In this document: positions 233-4,168 of the stretch, piece after piece | How positions within the stretch are numbered: position 1 is the stretch's first letter | How the letters are laid out: each line of letters starts with the position of its first letter | NCBI GenBank assembly: GCA_029263015.1 | Contig: JAJCYI010000224.1 | Span: 1-43,621 of the forward strand | Source: Saprospiraceae bacterium | Lineage (GTDB): Bacteria > Bacteroidota > Bacteroidia > Chitinophagales > Saprospiraceae | Direction: 5' to 3' | DNA: 43,621 nucleotides | Translations under genes and position numbers: made by a program | The notes under the pieces: model-generated | Seen by the model: only the letters and a program-made list of their open reading frames with translations | Databases searched by the model: none | Told to the model about the DNA's origin: nothing

Positions 233-1504
233 TTACAACACCTTTTCCGTCGCAGTAGTTACCGAGCCAGTGGAAGTTGTTACTGAGCTTGCCGAAGTAG
301 TTACCGAGCCAGTAGAAGTAGTTGCTGAGCTTGCCGAAGTAAATTCCCCCAAAAAAGCTTTTTGGAGGATGGATTTTTTGAGTTCTTCTAGGATTTCTAC
401 TTTTTGATAGTAGTGAGTTTCTACTTCTTTGGTTTCATTTTTTAGTTTTTCAATTTGAGGCAAAAGTATTTTTTGCTCATCAATATTTGGGAAAGTGATT
501 TTTATTTTTCTTAAATCATCATTGTATAGTCTTGAAATTGTTGCTCCTCTCGAAGGATTCCAATCACAAATGCTATAAAACTGGTATAAAAATTCATTTA
601 ACACTAATTTTTCATCATTATCAATCCACACTATATTTGAATCCTGAAAATATGCAGGTTTACCATCATAAATTACACGCCGACCAATTGTGCCAGAAGC
701 TGAAATAAGAATATCTCCTTTTTTAGGAAAGGAATATTTAGACCTAAATTCATCATATATTTCTTTAGAAATATAAGCATTTGCCTTTTTTCCAAACGTT
801 CCAATTTTGTAAAATGGAATTTCTCCTTCAGTTGTAGTTTGCTTTTTTAAAATTCTTTTACACATTGACACTTTACCCAATTCCCCCAATTTCCGCTCCT
901 CCCAACCCTCACCTTTCCTCGAAAAAACCTCATTCAATTTACTCTGAAAAAGCTCCTTCGCATTTTGCAAGTTCTTTTCCACATTGGCTTTAGCTTGGTC
1001 AATGGCGGCAAAGGCTTGGTCTAAGAGGGTGACGATTTGTTTTTGTTCTACTAGTGATTTTGGAAAAGAAATATAAGTGTTGTCAAAGCTATAATTGTTA
1101 ATTTGCGGAATTGAAGTTCCATTACTTAATTCAGCTAAATCTATTGATTGAAACCAATGAAATAAATAGTCAGAAGTAATCTCACCATTTGAATAAACCG
1201 CCATAGTGTTTAAATCTACGATGGTTGTTTTAACAATTTTTCTTTTTTTATTTGTAGAAATTGCTCCGCCTCTTTTTGGGAAAATTACTGAGCCGATTGG
1301 TATTAATTGATTGTCTTTAATATCATCTGAATTGACAAATCTGTTTGAAGACTTAATAGCGATTTCATTACCAGGTAAATTCATATCACCTACTTTGGCA
1401 TATAGAATTTCTCCCGAATTTTTTTCTAAAGATTTAGGTATTGTTTTTCCACTTTTAAAATCACAAACTTCTCCCAATTTTTTCATTTCCCATCCCTCTC
1501 TCAT
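233..1504 (-). CDS. hsdS: Type I restriction-modification specificity subunit HsdS
   Basis: This 423-residue protein has the HsdS plan: two target-recognition domains (about residues 7-150 and 205-340), each followed by a helical conserved region (for example VEQKQIVTLLDQAFAAIDQA near 153-172). In the HsdMS methylase and HsdRMS complex it chooses the DNA target. The ATG overlaps the hsdM stop by 4 bp (ATGA), which indicates translational coupling. The last 35 residues are an unusual Thr/Ser-rich tail of seven-residue repeats (TSTGSVT type) encoded by 21-bp repeats at 236-340; typical HsdS proteins stop near LGEF. The two recognition domains differ, as expected for a bipartite target. hsdR is not in view and would have to lie left of the window or elsewhere. 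Function is confident; the target sequence cannot be read from this. Confidence 0.93.
   Translation of the reverse strand: MREGWEMKKLGEVCDFKSGKTIPKSLEKNSGEILYAKVGDMNLPGNEIAIKSSNRFVNSDDIKDNQLIPIGSVIFPKRGGAISTNKKRKIVKTTIVDLNTMAVYSNGEITSDYLFHWFQSIDLAELSNGTSIPQINNYSFDNTYISFPKSLVEQKQIVTLLDQAFAAIDQAKANVEKNLQNAKELFQSKLNEVFSRKGEGWEERKLGELGKVSMCKRILKKQTTTEGEIPFYKIGTFGKKANAYISKEIYDEFRSKYSFPKKGDILISASGTIGRRVIYDGKPAYFQDSNIVWIDNDEKLVLNEFLYQFYSICDWNPSRGATISRLYNDDLRKIKITFPNIDEQKILLPQIEKLKNETKEVETHYYQKVEILEELKKSILQKAFLGEFTSASSATTSTGSVTTSASSVTTSTGSVTTATEKVL
236..340 (-). repeat. 21-bp tandem repeat encoding the HsdS tail
   Basis: Read on the minus strand, five 21-bp units encode TSASSAT, TSTGSVT, TSASSVT, TSTGSVT and a decayed TATEKVL. 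Two units contain TTCGGCAAGCTCAG, close to TTCGACAGGCTCAG at 1691-1704 inside hsdM. The tail therefore seems built from a dispersed repeat word and could change length in 7-residue steps. Confidence 0.85.
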
Positions 1505-2973
1505 ATCAATTCTTTTATAGATTGTAAAATAATATTCGTTTCCATATCCAGTTTTTCCATTTCCGCCAAAATCTCATCCGGGCTGCGCAGCGGTGCTTCC
1601 TCCGGCGTATTCGGATTTTTTACCGAAAGGTCAAAAGTATCTTCATTGATATCGGCTATTTTAAAAGTCCATGATTGTTCTGTTTCCCCTTTCGACAGGC
1701 TCAGGGTAATAAATTCTGATAAATCCTTGTCGTTGAGCGGATTGGTTTTGCCCATATTGCGGCCTGGGTCGAATTGGTAGTACCAAATCTTTTTGGTCGG
1801 TTCGCCTTTTTGAAAAAACAAGACCACCGTTTTCACCCCCGCCCCGAGGAAAGTACCAGAAGGCATATCGAGGATGGTGTGGAGTTGGCAGCTTTCCAGC
1901 AGGTGCTTCCGCAGGCTCACCGAGGCGTTGTCGGTATTGCTCAGAAAAGTATTTTTGATGACGATGGCCGCCCGTCCGCCCGCTTTGAGGGATTTGATAA
2001 AATGCTGTAAAAAAAGGAAAGCCGTTTCGCCCGTTTTGATGTCGAAGTTTTGCTGCACCTCCTTGCGTTCCTTCCCCCCGAACGGCGGATTGGCCAGGAT
2101 GACATGGTAGCGTTGCTTTTCCTGGATGTCCCGAATATTTTCACCAAGTGTATTGGTATGGATAATGTTCGGCGCTTCGATGCCGTGGAGTATCATGTTC
2201 ATCACGCCGATCACATAAGCGAGGTTCTTTTTCTCTTTTCCATAAAAGGTTTTTTCCTGTAAAGTTTTGAGGTTGGTGGTGTTTTGCTTCATCCGTTCGT
2301 ACATATACTCATACGCCTCACAAAGGAAGCCCGCCGAACCGACCGCCCCATCATATATCTTCTCGCCAATCTGTGGGTCGGTCAAATGCACCATTGCTCT
2401 AATGAGCGGTCGGGGCGTGTAGTATTGTCCGCCGTTGCGCCCGGCGTTGCCCATGTTTTTAATCTTCGTTTCGTAGAGATGGCTGAGTTCATGTTTGTCC
2501 TTGCTGCTGCGGAAGGGCAGTTCGTCTGCCAATTCCAAAATCTCCCGCAGGTTGTAGCCACTTTGGATTTTGTTTTTTAGCTCGCTGAAAATTTCACCGA
2601 TTTTATATTCGATGGTTTGGGCATTATCGGCTCTTTGTTTAAATCCAGCGAGATAGGGGAAGAGTTTTAAATCTACAAATTGGATGAGGTCGGGGCCGGT
2701 CATGGCGGCATTGTGGTCCAGTTCGACTTCGCTCTCTGACCCTGTTTTTAGCTTTTTGGGCATCGCCCAGCTTTCCCAGCAGTATTCCTCCTCAATGATG
2801 TATTCATATTCTTCACCCCGCAGTTCAGCTTCGTCGGCTTTTTCATTTTCCAGTTCCTCCAAATAACGGAGGAACATGATCCAGGAGGTTTGGCCTATGT
2901 AATCCAATTCGCTGTCAGCGCCTGCATCTTTCCAGAGGATGTCATCTATGTTTTTGAAGGTTTGTTCGAACAT
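1501..2973 (-). CDS. hsdM: Type I restriction-modification DNA methyltransferase subunit HsdM
   Basis: A 490-residue N6-adenine methyltransferase of the HsdM family. The N-terminal helical domain (about 1-150) starts FEQTFKNIDDILWKDAG. The AdoMet site follows (DGAVGSAGFL near 208-217, motif I), then the catalytic NPPFGG (motif IV). With HsdS it modifies the host recognition site. It is the first gene of an hsdM-hsdS pair on the minus strand. An oddity is a short LSLSKG segment near residue 425, encoded by 1688-1706, which matches a dispersed repeat word and looks like an in-frame insertion in a surface region before the SWTF segment. The ATG at 2971-2973 fits the family N-terminus. No clear TAnnTTTG promoter was found upstream. 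Confidence 0.95.
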   Translation of the reverse strand: MFEQTFKNIDDILWKDAGADSELDYIGQTSWIMFLRYLEELENEKADEAELRGEEYEYIIEEEYCWESWAMPKKLKTGSESEVELDHNAAMTGPDLIQFVDLKLFPYLAGFKQRADNAQTIEYKIGEIFSELKNKIQSGYNLREILELADELPFRSSKDKHELSHLYETKIKNMGNAGRNGGQYYTPRPLIRAMVHLTDPQIGEKIYDGAVGSAGFLCEAYEYMYERMKQNTTNLKTLQEKTFYGKEKKNLAYVIGVMNMILHGIEAPNIIHTNTLGENIRDIQEKQRYHVILANPPFGGKERKEVQQNFDIKTGETAFLFLQHFIKSLKAGGRAAIVIKNTFLSNTDNASVSLRKHLLESCQLHTILDMPSGTFLGAGVKTVVLFFQKGEPTKKIWYYQFDPGRNMGKTNPLNDKDLSEFITLSLSKGETEQSWTFKIADINEDTFDLSVKNPNTPEEAPLRSPDEILAEMEKLDMETNIILQSIKELI

Positions 2974-3151: not shown

Positions 3152-3190
3152 ACAAAAAAACCGAAGGCCGAAATAACGACGGCCTGCGGT
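3152..3190 (-). terminator. Intrinsic terminator after tRNA-Arg
   Basis: On the minus strand an 11-bp stem with one mismatch (ACCGCAGGCCG against CGGCCTTCGGT, loop of about 9 nt) is followed directly by a run of T. It lies 16 bp downstream of the tRNA 3' end and should end tRNA transcription. Confidence 0.8.
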
Positions 3191-3205: not shown

Positions 3206-3280
3206 TGGTAGCCCCACCAAGACTCGAACTTGGATCTATGGTTTAGGAAACCACTATTCTATCCCTTGAACTATGGGGCC
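3206..3280 (-). tRNA. tRNA-Arg (anticodon CCT), intact
   Basis: The minus strand folds as a complete cloverleaf. The acceptor stem is GGCCCCA/TGGGGCT (first pair G-U). The D stem is GTTC/GAAT and the anticodon stem GTGGT/ACCAT, with loop TTCCTAA giving anticodon CCT (reads AGG, Arg). A 4-nt variable region precedes T stem CCAAG/CTTGG with loop TTCGAGT. Discriminator A and an encoded CCA complete the gene. The stop codon and last codons of the upstream GIY-YIG gene overlap the first 10 bases of the tRNA. It is the only intact one of three tRNA-Arg-like copies here. Confidence 0.95.
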
Positions 3281-3534
3281 GATTCAATAATCGACTTTAA
3301 CCACTCTTTTCCACTTCCACTTTTCAAATACTTTTCTCTATCTCTAGCTTTCTGACGACCAATAACTTCTTCTTGATAGGCCAATTTCCAAGGCCGATAT
3401 CCTTTCGTAGATTTGGTTTTGCCAGCGTTGTGTTCTTTTACTCTTTTATCAATATCGAAAGTGAACCCGACATAAATTCTATTGTCCACTTCGCTTTTTA
3501 ATGCATATACGTAAAAAGTACTATCTGGGGTCAT
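3271..3534 (-). CDS. GIY-YIG nuclease domain protein, copy 1 (overlaps tRNA-Arg)
   Basis: This 87-residue protein is a single GIY-YIG domain. The motif appears as FYVYAL near residue 7 and IYVGFT near 19, followed by the conserved Arg of DKRVKEHN and the Glu of REKYLKSG. The family comprises small UvrC-N-terminus-like nucleases common and multicopy in Bacteroidota; the cellular role is mostly unknown. Its stop codon lies inside the 5' end of the intact tRNA-Arg (10-bp overlap), so its last residues are encoded by tRNA sequence. Copy 2 upstream on the same strand differs at only a few positions and has the same length. The arrangement suggests that the gene and the tRNA segment move or duplicate as one unit. 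Nuclease activity is inferred from the family; targeting of tRNA genes is inferred from context. Confidence 0.9.
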   Translation of the reverse strand: MTPDSTFYVYALKSEVDNRIYVGFTFDIDKRVKEHNAGKTKSTKGYRPWKLAYQEEVIGRQKARDREKYLKSGSGKEWLKSIIESAP

Positions 3535-3574
3535 AAAACAATCAATTTGTAGCTACATCAAAACTACTTGCATT

Positions 3575-3673
3575 CCGAGAACTTGGATCTATGGTTTAGG
3601 AAACCACTATTCCCTCCCTATCGGGAGGCGGGCCTGCCTGCCGGTAGGCAGGTATCCCTTGAACTATGGGGCC
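3575..3673 (-). pseudogene. Damaged tRNA-Arg copy 2 (T-loop truncated, D-arm insertion)
   Basis: From 3673 downwards the minus strand repeats the intact tRNA from its first base through AAGTTC in the T loop. It then diverges (TCGG instead of GAGT), so the 3' side of the T arm and the acceptor 3' strand are missing. A 40-bp GC-rich insert with two hairpins (CCTGCC..GGCAGG and CCTCCC..GGGAGG) splits the D arm after GGGATA. It cannot make a mature tRNA. The last codons of GIY-YIG copy 2 overlap its 5' end. Confidence 0.9.
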
Positions 3674-3927
3674 GATTCAATAATCGACTTTAACCACTCT
3701 TTCCCACTTCCACTTTTCAAATACTTTTCTGTATCTCTAGCTTTCTGACGACCAATAACTTCTTCTTGATAGGCCAAATTCCAAGGCCGATATCCTTTCG
3801 TAGATTTGGTTTTGCCAGCGTTGTGTTCTTTTACTCTTTTATCAATATCAAAGGTGAATCCAACATATATTCTACTGTCCACTTCACTTATTAATGCATA
3901 CACGTAAAAGACATTATTTGGGGTCAT
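3664..3927 (-). CDS. GIY-YIG nuclease domain protein, copy 2
   Basis: Nearly identical to copy 1 (3271-3534): the same 87 residues from MTPNN, with a handful of substitutions, and the same GIY-YIG, Arg and Glu motif residues. A longer reading frame reaches 3954, but the start at 3925-3927 gives the same N-terminus and length as copy 1 and leaves the same roughly 40-nt leader after the upstream tRNA remnant. It ends in a tRNA-like sequence exactly as copy 1 does, here the damaged tRNA at 3575-3673. Both copies keep intact frames and the catalytic residues, so selection or recent duplication is likely. Confidence 0.88.
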   Translation of the reverse strand: MTPNNVFYVYALISEVDSRIYVGFTFDIDKRVKEHNAGKTKSTKGYRPWNLAYQEEVIGRQKARDTEKYLKSGSGKEWLKSIIESAP

Positions 3928-3967
3928 GCAATATTCAATTCTTGGCCTCACCAATCCTCATTGTCCG

Positions 3968-4041
3968 CCGAGAACTTGGATCTATGGTTAGGAAACCACT
4001 ATTCCCTCCCGATAGGCAGGTATCCCTTGAACTATGGGGCC
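3968..4041 (-). pseudogene. Damaged tRNA-Arg copy 3 (outermost remnant)
   Basis: The minus strand matches the intact tRNA-Arg from base 1 to AAGTTC, then diverges as copy 2 does (TCGG). The D arm carries a 16-bp insert (CCTGCCTATCGGGAGG) that looks like an internally deleted form of the copy 2 insert. The anticodon region has lost one A. It lies closest to the putative original promoter at 4107-4136. Confidence 0.85.
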
Positions 4042-4053
4042 GGAAATGGGGTA

Positions 4054-4168
4054 TTGGAAATTGAGAAATTAGATATTCATGGCATCCCAAATCTCCAAAT
4101 CGGGCGCAAATTTAACGCTTCTTCCCAATTTCCCAATTTCTAATTTCTAATTTCTTCTCCTCAATTTC
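4054..4168. repeat. AATTTCT-word inverted spacer
   Basis: One arm (4054-4073) holds the words GGAAATTGAGAAATT. The opposite arm (4125-4168) holds CAATTTCCCAATTTC and AATTTCTAATTTCT in the complementary sense. The right arm abuts the stop codon of the kinase gene at 4167. This is one member of a word-repeat spacer class seen across the window. Confidence 0.6.
4107..4136 (-). promoter_or_regulatory. Candidate promoter of the tRNA-Arg/GIY-YIG array
   Basis: On the minus strand TTG (4136-4134), a 19-nt spacer and TAAATTTG (4114-4107) match the Bacteroidota -33/-7 pattern TTG-N19-TAnnTTTG. Transcription would start near 4100 and read through the outer tRNA remnant, both GIY-YIG genes and finally the intact tRNA. 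Part of the -33 region lies in an AATTTCC word repeat. Confidence 0.5.

Follow-up and report, generated by a model that had tools for sequence, protein, structure and literature searches.

GIY-YIG nuclease units beside tRNA genes: probable hairpin-marked mobile elements that rebuild the tRNA gene they enter

Why is a transfer RNA (tRNA) gene preceded by two copies of a small nuclease gene and by broken copies of itself? The question is raised by a stretch of 43,621 nucleotides (nt) from a Saprospiraceae bacterium (contig JAJCYI010000224.1; "the window" below means this whole stretch), on whose minus strand one intact tRNA-Arg(CCT) gene at 3280-3206, detected by ARAGORN, is preceded by two tandem units that each hold a gene of the GIY-YIG nuclease family. 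We propose as the probable explanation that such units are mobile elements built on a single-domain GIY-YIG nuclease, which are marked by a hairpin, insert into tRNA genes and rebuild the tRNA that they enter. The units look like a mobile element, and a search of the open-access literature found no description of such a unit.

The locus has the order that an initial annotation, made from the letters alone, had read on the minus strand, namely a promoter-like region, tRNA copy 3, GIY-YIG copy 2, tRNA copy 2, GIY-YIG copy 1 and the intact tRNA-Arg(CCT), which a DNA search finds to be the sole complete copy of this tRNA in its own genome. Each unit consists, in this order, of an insert of the type CCTGCC..GG, tRNA-like bases 22-55, a 44-nt leader, the GIY-YIG gene and tRNA bases 1-21. 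We read unit A as 4020-3653 (368 base pairs, bp) and unit B as 3652-3260 (393 bp); these borders are a reading, and the repeats alone permit other phases. The features are, in the direction of the minus strand:

4107..4114, minus strand: promoter-like TAAATTTG box, by comparison with empty sites the native tRNA-Arg promoter, now ahead of broken copy 3.
4021..4041, minus strand: tRNA copy 3, bases 1-21 (100% match), adjoining the native promoter and the upstream gene and read as the native tRNA 5' part.
4005..4020, minus strand: D-loop insert CCTGCCTATCGGGAGG of unit A, an eroded hairpin with a longest perfect stem of 3 and no type assigned.
3972..4004, minus strand: tRNA-like bases 22-55 of unit A, one base missing (97% match).
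3928..3971, minus strand: 44-nt leader of unit A, made up of a 12-nt T-loop insertion and an eroded tRNA 3' part (1 of 2000 shuffles scores as well).
3664..3927, minus strand: GIY-YIG gene of unit A (copy 2), ATG at 3927, stop inside the next tRNA copy (PF01541, expectation value E 1.1e-14).
3653..3673, minus strand: right end of unit A, tRNA copy 2 bases 1-21 (sequence match).
3613..3652, minus strand: 40-nt hairpin insert in the D-loop of unit B, containing CCTGCCTACCGGCAGGCAGG, of a family dispersed in its own genome.
3579..3612, minus strand: tRNA-like bases 22-55 of unit B (100% match).
3535..3578, minus strand: 44-nt leader of unit B, an eroded tRNA 3' part (12 of 2000 shuffles score as well).
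3271..3534, minus strand: GIY-YIG gene of unit B (copy 1), 87 amino acids, ATG at 3534 (PF01541, E 1.2e-15).
3206..3280, minus strand: intact tRNA-Arg(CCT) (ARAGORN), bases 1-21 read as unit-borne and bases 22-75 as native.
3153..3190, minus strand: terminator-like hairpin and T run, read from the sequence as the native 3' flank (similar layout at the empty site of genome G010).

Both frames match PF01541, in agreement with their first assignment, and the 10-base overlap of each frame with the next tRNA copy that had been described is found at the TAG of tRNA bases 8-10, which serves as the stop codon. The two gene copies are 92% identical, with 8 changes in synonymous and 9 in non-synonymous codons, and this frame is the only family-matched gene in the two units, which have no room for another and hold no recombinase gene. 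The remnants contain four tRNA blocks, which match the tRNA at E from 9e-16 to 5e-8, and a partial tRNA copy was found at 0 of 28 loci in the same genome where a tRNA has no GIY-YIG gene (E 0.01; 30 of its 36 tRNAs fetched, some loci overlapping). On these two grounds the remnants are not due to chance. They had been described as matching the tRNA from base 1 to AAGTTC in the T-loop and breaking there. Both do reach AAGTTC and then depart from the tRNA, but the match is neither continuous, an insert of 16 or 40 bases of the CCTGCC..GG type following base 21 in the D-loop, nor at its end there: past AAGTTC comes a 12-base insertion, and then the tRNA 3' part with its flank, recognisable but eroded. 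Because these 3' parts are still detectable (1 and 12 of 2000 shuffles as good), both remnants are full-length tRNA copies, and truncation at the T-loop is rejected. The distance from AAGTTC to the ATG is 44 nt, not 40 as first given.

The nuclease is widespread. A protein search of 100 related genomes gave matches in 44, and an alignment search gave matches in at least 224 of 396 genomes of the order and at least 236 of 395 in a sample of the phylum; the order and phylum counts are of nuclease matches, and linkage to a tRNA refers to the loci whose DNA was fetched. Sixty regions were hand-picked from the top of the order-level match list, and five places listed by the protein search of 100 genomes (one each in genomes G090, G092 and G095, two in G093) were left out. 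From 157 loci we removed 11 duplicates, leaving 146, and then 24 within 300 bp of a sequence end, leaving 122. A tRNA on the same strand lies within 300 bp at 112 of the 122 loci, and at none is there one on the opposite strand only; partial copies of the nearby tRNA are present as well at 102. The 122 loci were chosen by similarity to tRNA-linked members, so the share with a tRNA is not that of all GIY-YIG genes. The remnants expected beside homologous genes are mostly there (102 of the 112 loci with a tRNA), and a later set from the phylum level has a tRNA at 21 of 23 loci and partial copies at 19. Weak homologues (E > 1e-14) have no tRNA in the fetched DNA at 14 of 15 loci; L244 has one, and two of the loci, L250 and L254, are close to a contig end.

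The target tRNAs span 25 anticodons and 14 amino acids. Copies linked to ribosomal RNA (rRNA) are rejected as a further group: in 20 loci without a close tRNA, several of them at contig ends, Rfam found no rRNA and three tRNAs only. Also rejected are an intron, as a single tRNA was the sole Rfam hit at the gathering threshold in every one of 16 unit-bearing loci scanned, and phage or plasmid cargo, as the window protein has one weak match among 50,697 phage records and none among 72,556 plasmids. A scan of genome contigs gave five loci. Units are present in Echinicola pacifica (L118, tRNA-Arg CCT) and in two metagenome-assembled genomes (MAGs) of Patescibacteria, one of Gracilibacteria (L119, tRNA-Met with three broken copies) and one of Peregrinibacteria (L121, tRNA-Asp); the other two loci, L120 and L122, have no tRNA in the fetched DNA. 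The MAGs, if binned correctly, put the unit in a second phylum-level group.

Two classes of locus can be told apart by the place of the intact tRNA, which stands first at 83 of the 112 loci, last at 26 and inside the array at 3. In class D, to which the window belongs, it stands last, and the upstream broken copy retains the native 5' part up to the hairpin, mostly in the D-arm (between GGCGAA and ATTGG in 3 of 5 Leu rows; preceded by ATA and followed by GA in 13 of 15 Arg rows). The tRNA-like part behind the hairpin ranges from about 5 bases (L043) to 34 (the window), and in 18 of 25 last units the nuclease frame ends within the tRNA that follows. In class T the intact tRNA stands first and the downstream broken copy retains the native 3' part behind a hairpin. 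In many Arg, Leu, Glu and Phe rows this hairpin splits the T-loop at TTC|GA, and for Met, Ala and Asp most rows have it in the variable region. The hairpin occupies the place of the anticodon arm in L119, L246 and L176. Both classes surround one tRNA at L014/L041 (genome G003). That a unit enters a tRNA gene carrying a replacement for part of it had been suggested in the initial annotation, and this part of the idea is retained; the T-loop as the target of the window copy is not, since the fixed landmark of class-D units is the D-loop hairpin. The two observations that the annotation had named as refuting insertion, a lack of empty sites and a lack of remnants beside homologous genes, both turned out in favour of insertion. 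Other members of the family do sit in the T-loop (TTC|GA), variable region or anticodon arm, and those carry the tRNA's 3' rather than its 5' part. Not yet recognised in that account were the hairpins as such, a second class of unit and how widespread the family is.

Whatever the number of units, the target tRNA is nearly always kept intact once: counted within 300 bp, 110 of 112 loci have exactly one intact copy, and counted within 700 bp, 109 do. Arrays reach 5 to 6 nuclease copies with a single intact target tRNA, the longest (L287) having five full copies and a partial one. Some units have lost most of the nuclease gene (L186, L119). At 3240-3403 of L119, the Gracilibacteria MAG, two tandem 82-bp units without a nuclease gene separate the GIY-YIG gene from the intact tRNA-Met; they are miniature, non-autonomous-looking derivatives. 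At L157 a GIY-YIG gene is flanked by two ARAGORN-intact tRNA-Phe copies, which may be a young insertion.

Insertion into an existing gene implies empty sites in relatives, and orthologous empty sites are found. The window tRNA lies behind a fructosamine-kinase-like gene (named by eye) and the TAAATTTG box. In four congeners (G001, G002, G008, G010) the same upstream gene and such a box, TAAATTTG or TAACTTTG, stand ahead of one lone intact tRNA-Arg(CCT), and the 3 kb fetched at each site contain neither a GIY-YIG gene nor a partial tRNA copy. The Bacteroidota -7 promoter consensus is TAnnTTTG. The tRNAs of the window and of the empty site in G010 are identical at 75 of 75 bases. The empty locus L214 has one weak protein match (E 0.001); it falls where the upstream kinase-like frame ends, and we regard it as fortuitous. 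The tRNA-Arg locus is occupied in G000 and G009, so that the count between species is 4 empty and 2 occupied. In G009 the locus holds a class-T unit, and the terminator behind its broken copy is of native type (85% to empty G001, 90% to L012 of G011), while that behind its intact copy is of unit type (82% to the G011 unit, 67% to G001), which is the polarity predicted by the insertion model. In G011 an integrase-like frame (by eye) adjoins tRNA-Arg(CCT) in L012, and L044 begins with the tRNA 3' part; these two observations suggest that an integrase island may have split a two-class array at the T-loop.

The broken copies carry a short hairpin where the native tRNA begins. We distinguish three types: A, CCTGCC..GGCAGG; B, TCCGCC..GGCGGA; and C, TCCCG..CGGGA. 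A typed hairpin is present at 77 of 102 junctions compared with 11 of 4003 background windows; the types were set after looking at the junctions, so the count of 77 is not a blind one, and the 102 are what remained of 104 computed junction rows when 2 with runs of N were dropped. Hairpin type follows the protein. On the protein tree (166 rows, 84 columns, many weak forks) it changes twice over 71 typed loci, the fewest changes possible with three types, compared with a mean of 31.5 and a minimum of 25 in 300 shuffles, and for all 71 of them the best match from another family agrees in type (25.1 expected). The association persists when a single isotype is considered (for Met, 15 of type B against 3 of type C; for Leu, 11 of type A against 2 of type C) or a single genome (A in the window, B in L003). 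Among 17 typed loci of the later phylum set, 14 show the type predicted from the protein alone, with no other type beside it, 2 show it alongside another, and 1 (L269) is a mismatch. The anticodon follows the protein too, with 46 changes on the tree (125 loci, 25 anticodons) where 200 shuffles gave a mean of 92 and a minimum of 87, and with the same anticodon in the best match outside the own GTDB family at 58 of 125 loci (9.8 expected). Type-C hairpins have five invariant outer bases, whereas inner pairs 1 and 2 vary, with 3 and 4 pair types, and are Watson-Crick in 20 of 20 distinct hairpins. Since the hairpin sequence is held and, in type C, its pairing as well, comparison of the sequences suggests that the hairpin is recognised by the protein or by something travelling with it. 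Five tRNA-Asn loci (L262, L263, L266, L267, L270) have hairpins of none of the three types, the nearest typed protein being of type B; this group may perhaps represent a fourth type.

The protein itself is small. The only Pfam family in the window protein is PF01541, and its AlphaFold2 model has a mean predicted local distance difference test (pLDDT) score of 90.9. In an alignment of 26 sequences Y21, G23, R31, H35, E67 and K71 are invariant and Y10 is present in at least 90%, among them residues that we take to be catalytic. The nearest solved folds are UPF0213 (1zg2, E 1.0e-4, matched by sequence too at E 4.1e-6) and chains of Slx1 (E 2e-3 to 4e-2), a nuclease of branched DNA; we know of no hairpin or tRNA unit for either.

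We propose that a unit has three components: the nuclease gene, a hairpin and a portion of the tRNA that it targets. Upon insertion the native tRNA part and the unit-borne part would join as one intact tRNA, and the other junction would be left as a broken, hairpin-bearing copy. A class-D nuclease gene would come to lie behind the native tRNA promoter. The nuclease would be expressed by read-through from the tRNA promoter, and the protein would then cut the DNA of a matching tRNA gene that has no unit, at a presumed cut site, and the break would be repaired via the tRNA parts using the unit-bearing copy, in the manner of intronless homing, with the hairpin as a cis site that goes with the protein and is presumably recognised. 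Tandem arrays could arise from repeated insertion at the rebuilt site or from unequal recombination, and units may still be moving at present.

Several observations weigh against this explanation. No tRNA lies within 300 bp at 10 of the 122 loci and 10 more have no partial copy, 25 of the 102 junctions have no typed hairpin, and for 62 of the 166 GIY-YIG rows no junction was computed. Type-B hairpins are unpaired inside the fixed six-base arms (2/7). The junctions fall in different tRNA arms in different clades, two ARAGORN-intact copies are present in L157 and L176 (and, within 700 bp, also in L021), and neither Pfam nor AlphaFold2 makes any domain visible besides the catalytic one. The rebuilt tRNA still holds the presumed target and would need some way to escape recutting. 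In G011 the terminator behind the broken copy at L044 is of unit type (87%), not native (70%), and the polarity after the island insertion is ambiguous. Isotype tracking could also reflect long vertical inheritance together with the tRNA. Finally, with one genome sampled per species, presence and absence are compared between species only, and no movement was seen.

The alternative that fares best, itself rather unlikely, is a system working at the RNA level, where the hairpin-bearing tRNA-like copy would be a functional RNA, whether as regulator, decoy or antitoxin, and the GIY-YIG protein would have RNA as its substrate or be under RNA control. Such a role would fit the compensatory change that keeps the type-C hairpin paired, the tRNA promoters ahead of class-D broken copies and the otherwise tRNA-like copies of L119, L246 and L176 in which the hairpin replaces the anticodon arm. 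It fits less well with the eroded 3' parts of the broken copies in the window, the tRNA-like parts cut short in L149 and L043 and the scattering of the same palindrome families through genomes.

We also consider improbable an amplification like that of phage SegB, in which the nuclease promotes tandem duplication of a tRNA and its own gene, through breaks followed by recombination between the tRNA 5' end and the nuclease 3' end, and the arrays are selected for tRNA dosage or evasion of defence. There is a precedent: according to PMC13096335, T6 SegB cuts drive tandem tRNA-Tyr and segB repeats, and recombination is proposed at a microhomology between the tRNA 5' end and the segB 3' end. T4 SegB is listed in PMC2988022 as a free-standing homing endonuclease with a tRNA intergenic region as its target. 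T6 SegB is by analogy the nearest worked example for the units. They share with T4 and T6 SegB the proximity of a GIY-YIG gene to tRNA genes of many isotypes, the tandem repeats and a junction of tRNA 5' end and nuclease 3' end; the tandem arrays and the 18 of 25 class-D last units with the stop inside the following tRNA agree with such a route. Units amplified in this way would be expected to keep working tRNAs, however, and here all copies but one are interrupted, mostly by the hairpin, at 110 of 112 loci; as interrupted copies should not raise the dosage of working tRNA, amplification for dosage is disfavoured. Unlike SegB, the units are chromosomal, encode proteins of about 80-90 amino acids with only the catalytic domain visible, have one intact target tRNA per array, and show a clade-specific hairpin at the broken junction and isotype-tracking clades. 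Phage records are moreover nearly without a relative of the window protein, as given above, and the term "palindrom" does not occur in the searched main text of PMC13096335.

Very unlikely, and already disfavoured, are ancient fixed tRNA duplications around a GIY-YIG gene with neutral decay and palindromes landing by chance: vertical descent would yield isotype tracking and palindromes do occur elsewhere in the genomes, but empty and occupied orthologous sites exist within one genus, hairpin type follows the protein across families without exception, typed hairpins far exceed their background, junction points recur and active sites are kept.

A rebuilding mobile element, the reading that we prefer, has partial parallels among known systems. 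As in free-standing homing endonucleases, there is a conserved GIY-YIG domain, no host intron, and empty and occupied alleles (between species only). Intronless homing endonuclease genes, with cases in fungal mitochondria, replace part of their host gene; the units resemble them in being inserted in a gene with a carried replacement part and differ in the tRNA target, the hairpin and the two opposite polarities. Genomic islands integrate at tRNA 3' ends via integrases and rebuild the tRNA; for them, too, the tRNA is target and is rebuilt, whereas the window units have no recombinase gene. Repetitive extragenic palindromic (REP) sequences are short hairpins scattered over genomes, and their type is linked to the REP-associated tyrosine transposase (RAYT, TnpA-REP), a Y1 transposase. 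The 71 of 71 agreement of palindrome type and protein clade is a likeness to REP/RAYT, in contrast to which the unit protein is GIY-YIG and not HUH/Y1 (PF01541 only) and the hairpins lie between tRNA parts.

All three palindrome types also occur elsewhere in some genomes, well above a control with the reversed pattern (for example, 108 of type A in G000, control 0; 627 of type C in G003, control 2). When palindrome counts are set against nuclease clades, the lowest p for each type belongs to the matching clade (3.2e-4 for type A, 3.6e-6 for B and 6.2e-4 for C), but unmatched pairs are raised too, genomes with clade A being also rich in type B (p 1.3e-4) and in type C (p 3.5e-3), all these values coming from an incomplete gene census and being uncorrected for kinship. 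G010 has 107 palindromes of type A, 105 of type B and 272 of type C, and the only gene matter found there is type-C-like pieces and one weak homologue, a possible relic population. Five genomes (G002, G006, G016, G040, G099) have 30 to 66 type-C palindromes each and no gene at E 1e-6. Because palindrome-rich genomes without a matching gene exist, mobilisation of the palindromes in trans is only a possibility. The wider proposal, that the units are a new class of mobile DNA whose nucleases and matching hairpins also seeded the three dispersed families in trans, in a role like that of RAYT, is accordingly one that we put forward tentatively and regard as doubtful.

If the preferred explanation is true, the units would be a compact mobile element hosted by tRNA genes across a phylum, which spares them by rebuilding. 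They would be a candidate origin for the dispersed palindromes, for which we know of no maker, and would provide a natural collection of paired nucleases and hairpins with which to study site finding by a minimal GIY-YIG domain.

Two minor observations concern annotation and neighbourhood. Broken copies can be called as tRNAs: at L176 the downstream tRNA-Arg copy, with a palindrome as its anticodon arm, is still called tRNA-Arg(TCT) by ARAGORN. In the window, hsdM-like and hsdS-like genes of Type I restriction-modification (identified by eye from their translations; 233-2973, minus strand) lie directly downstream of the tRNA-Arg 3' end, and are possibly an island that uses the same tRNA.

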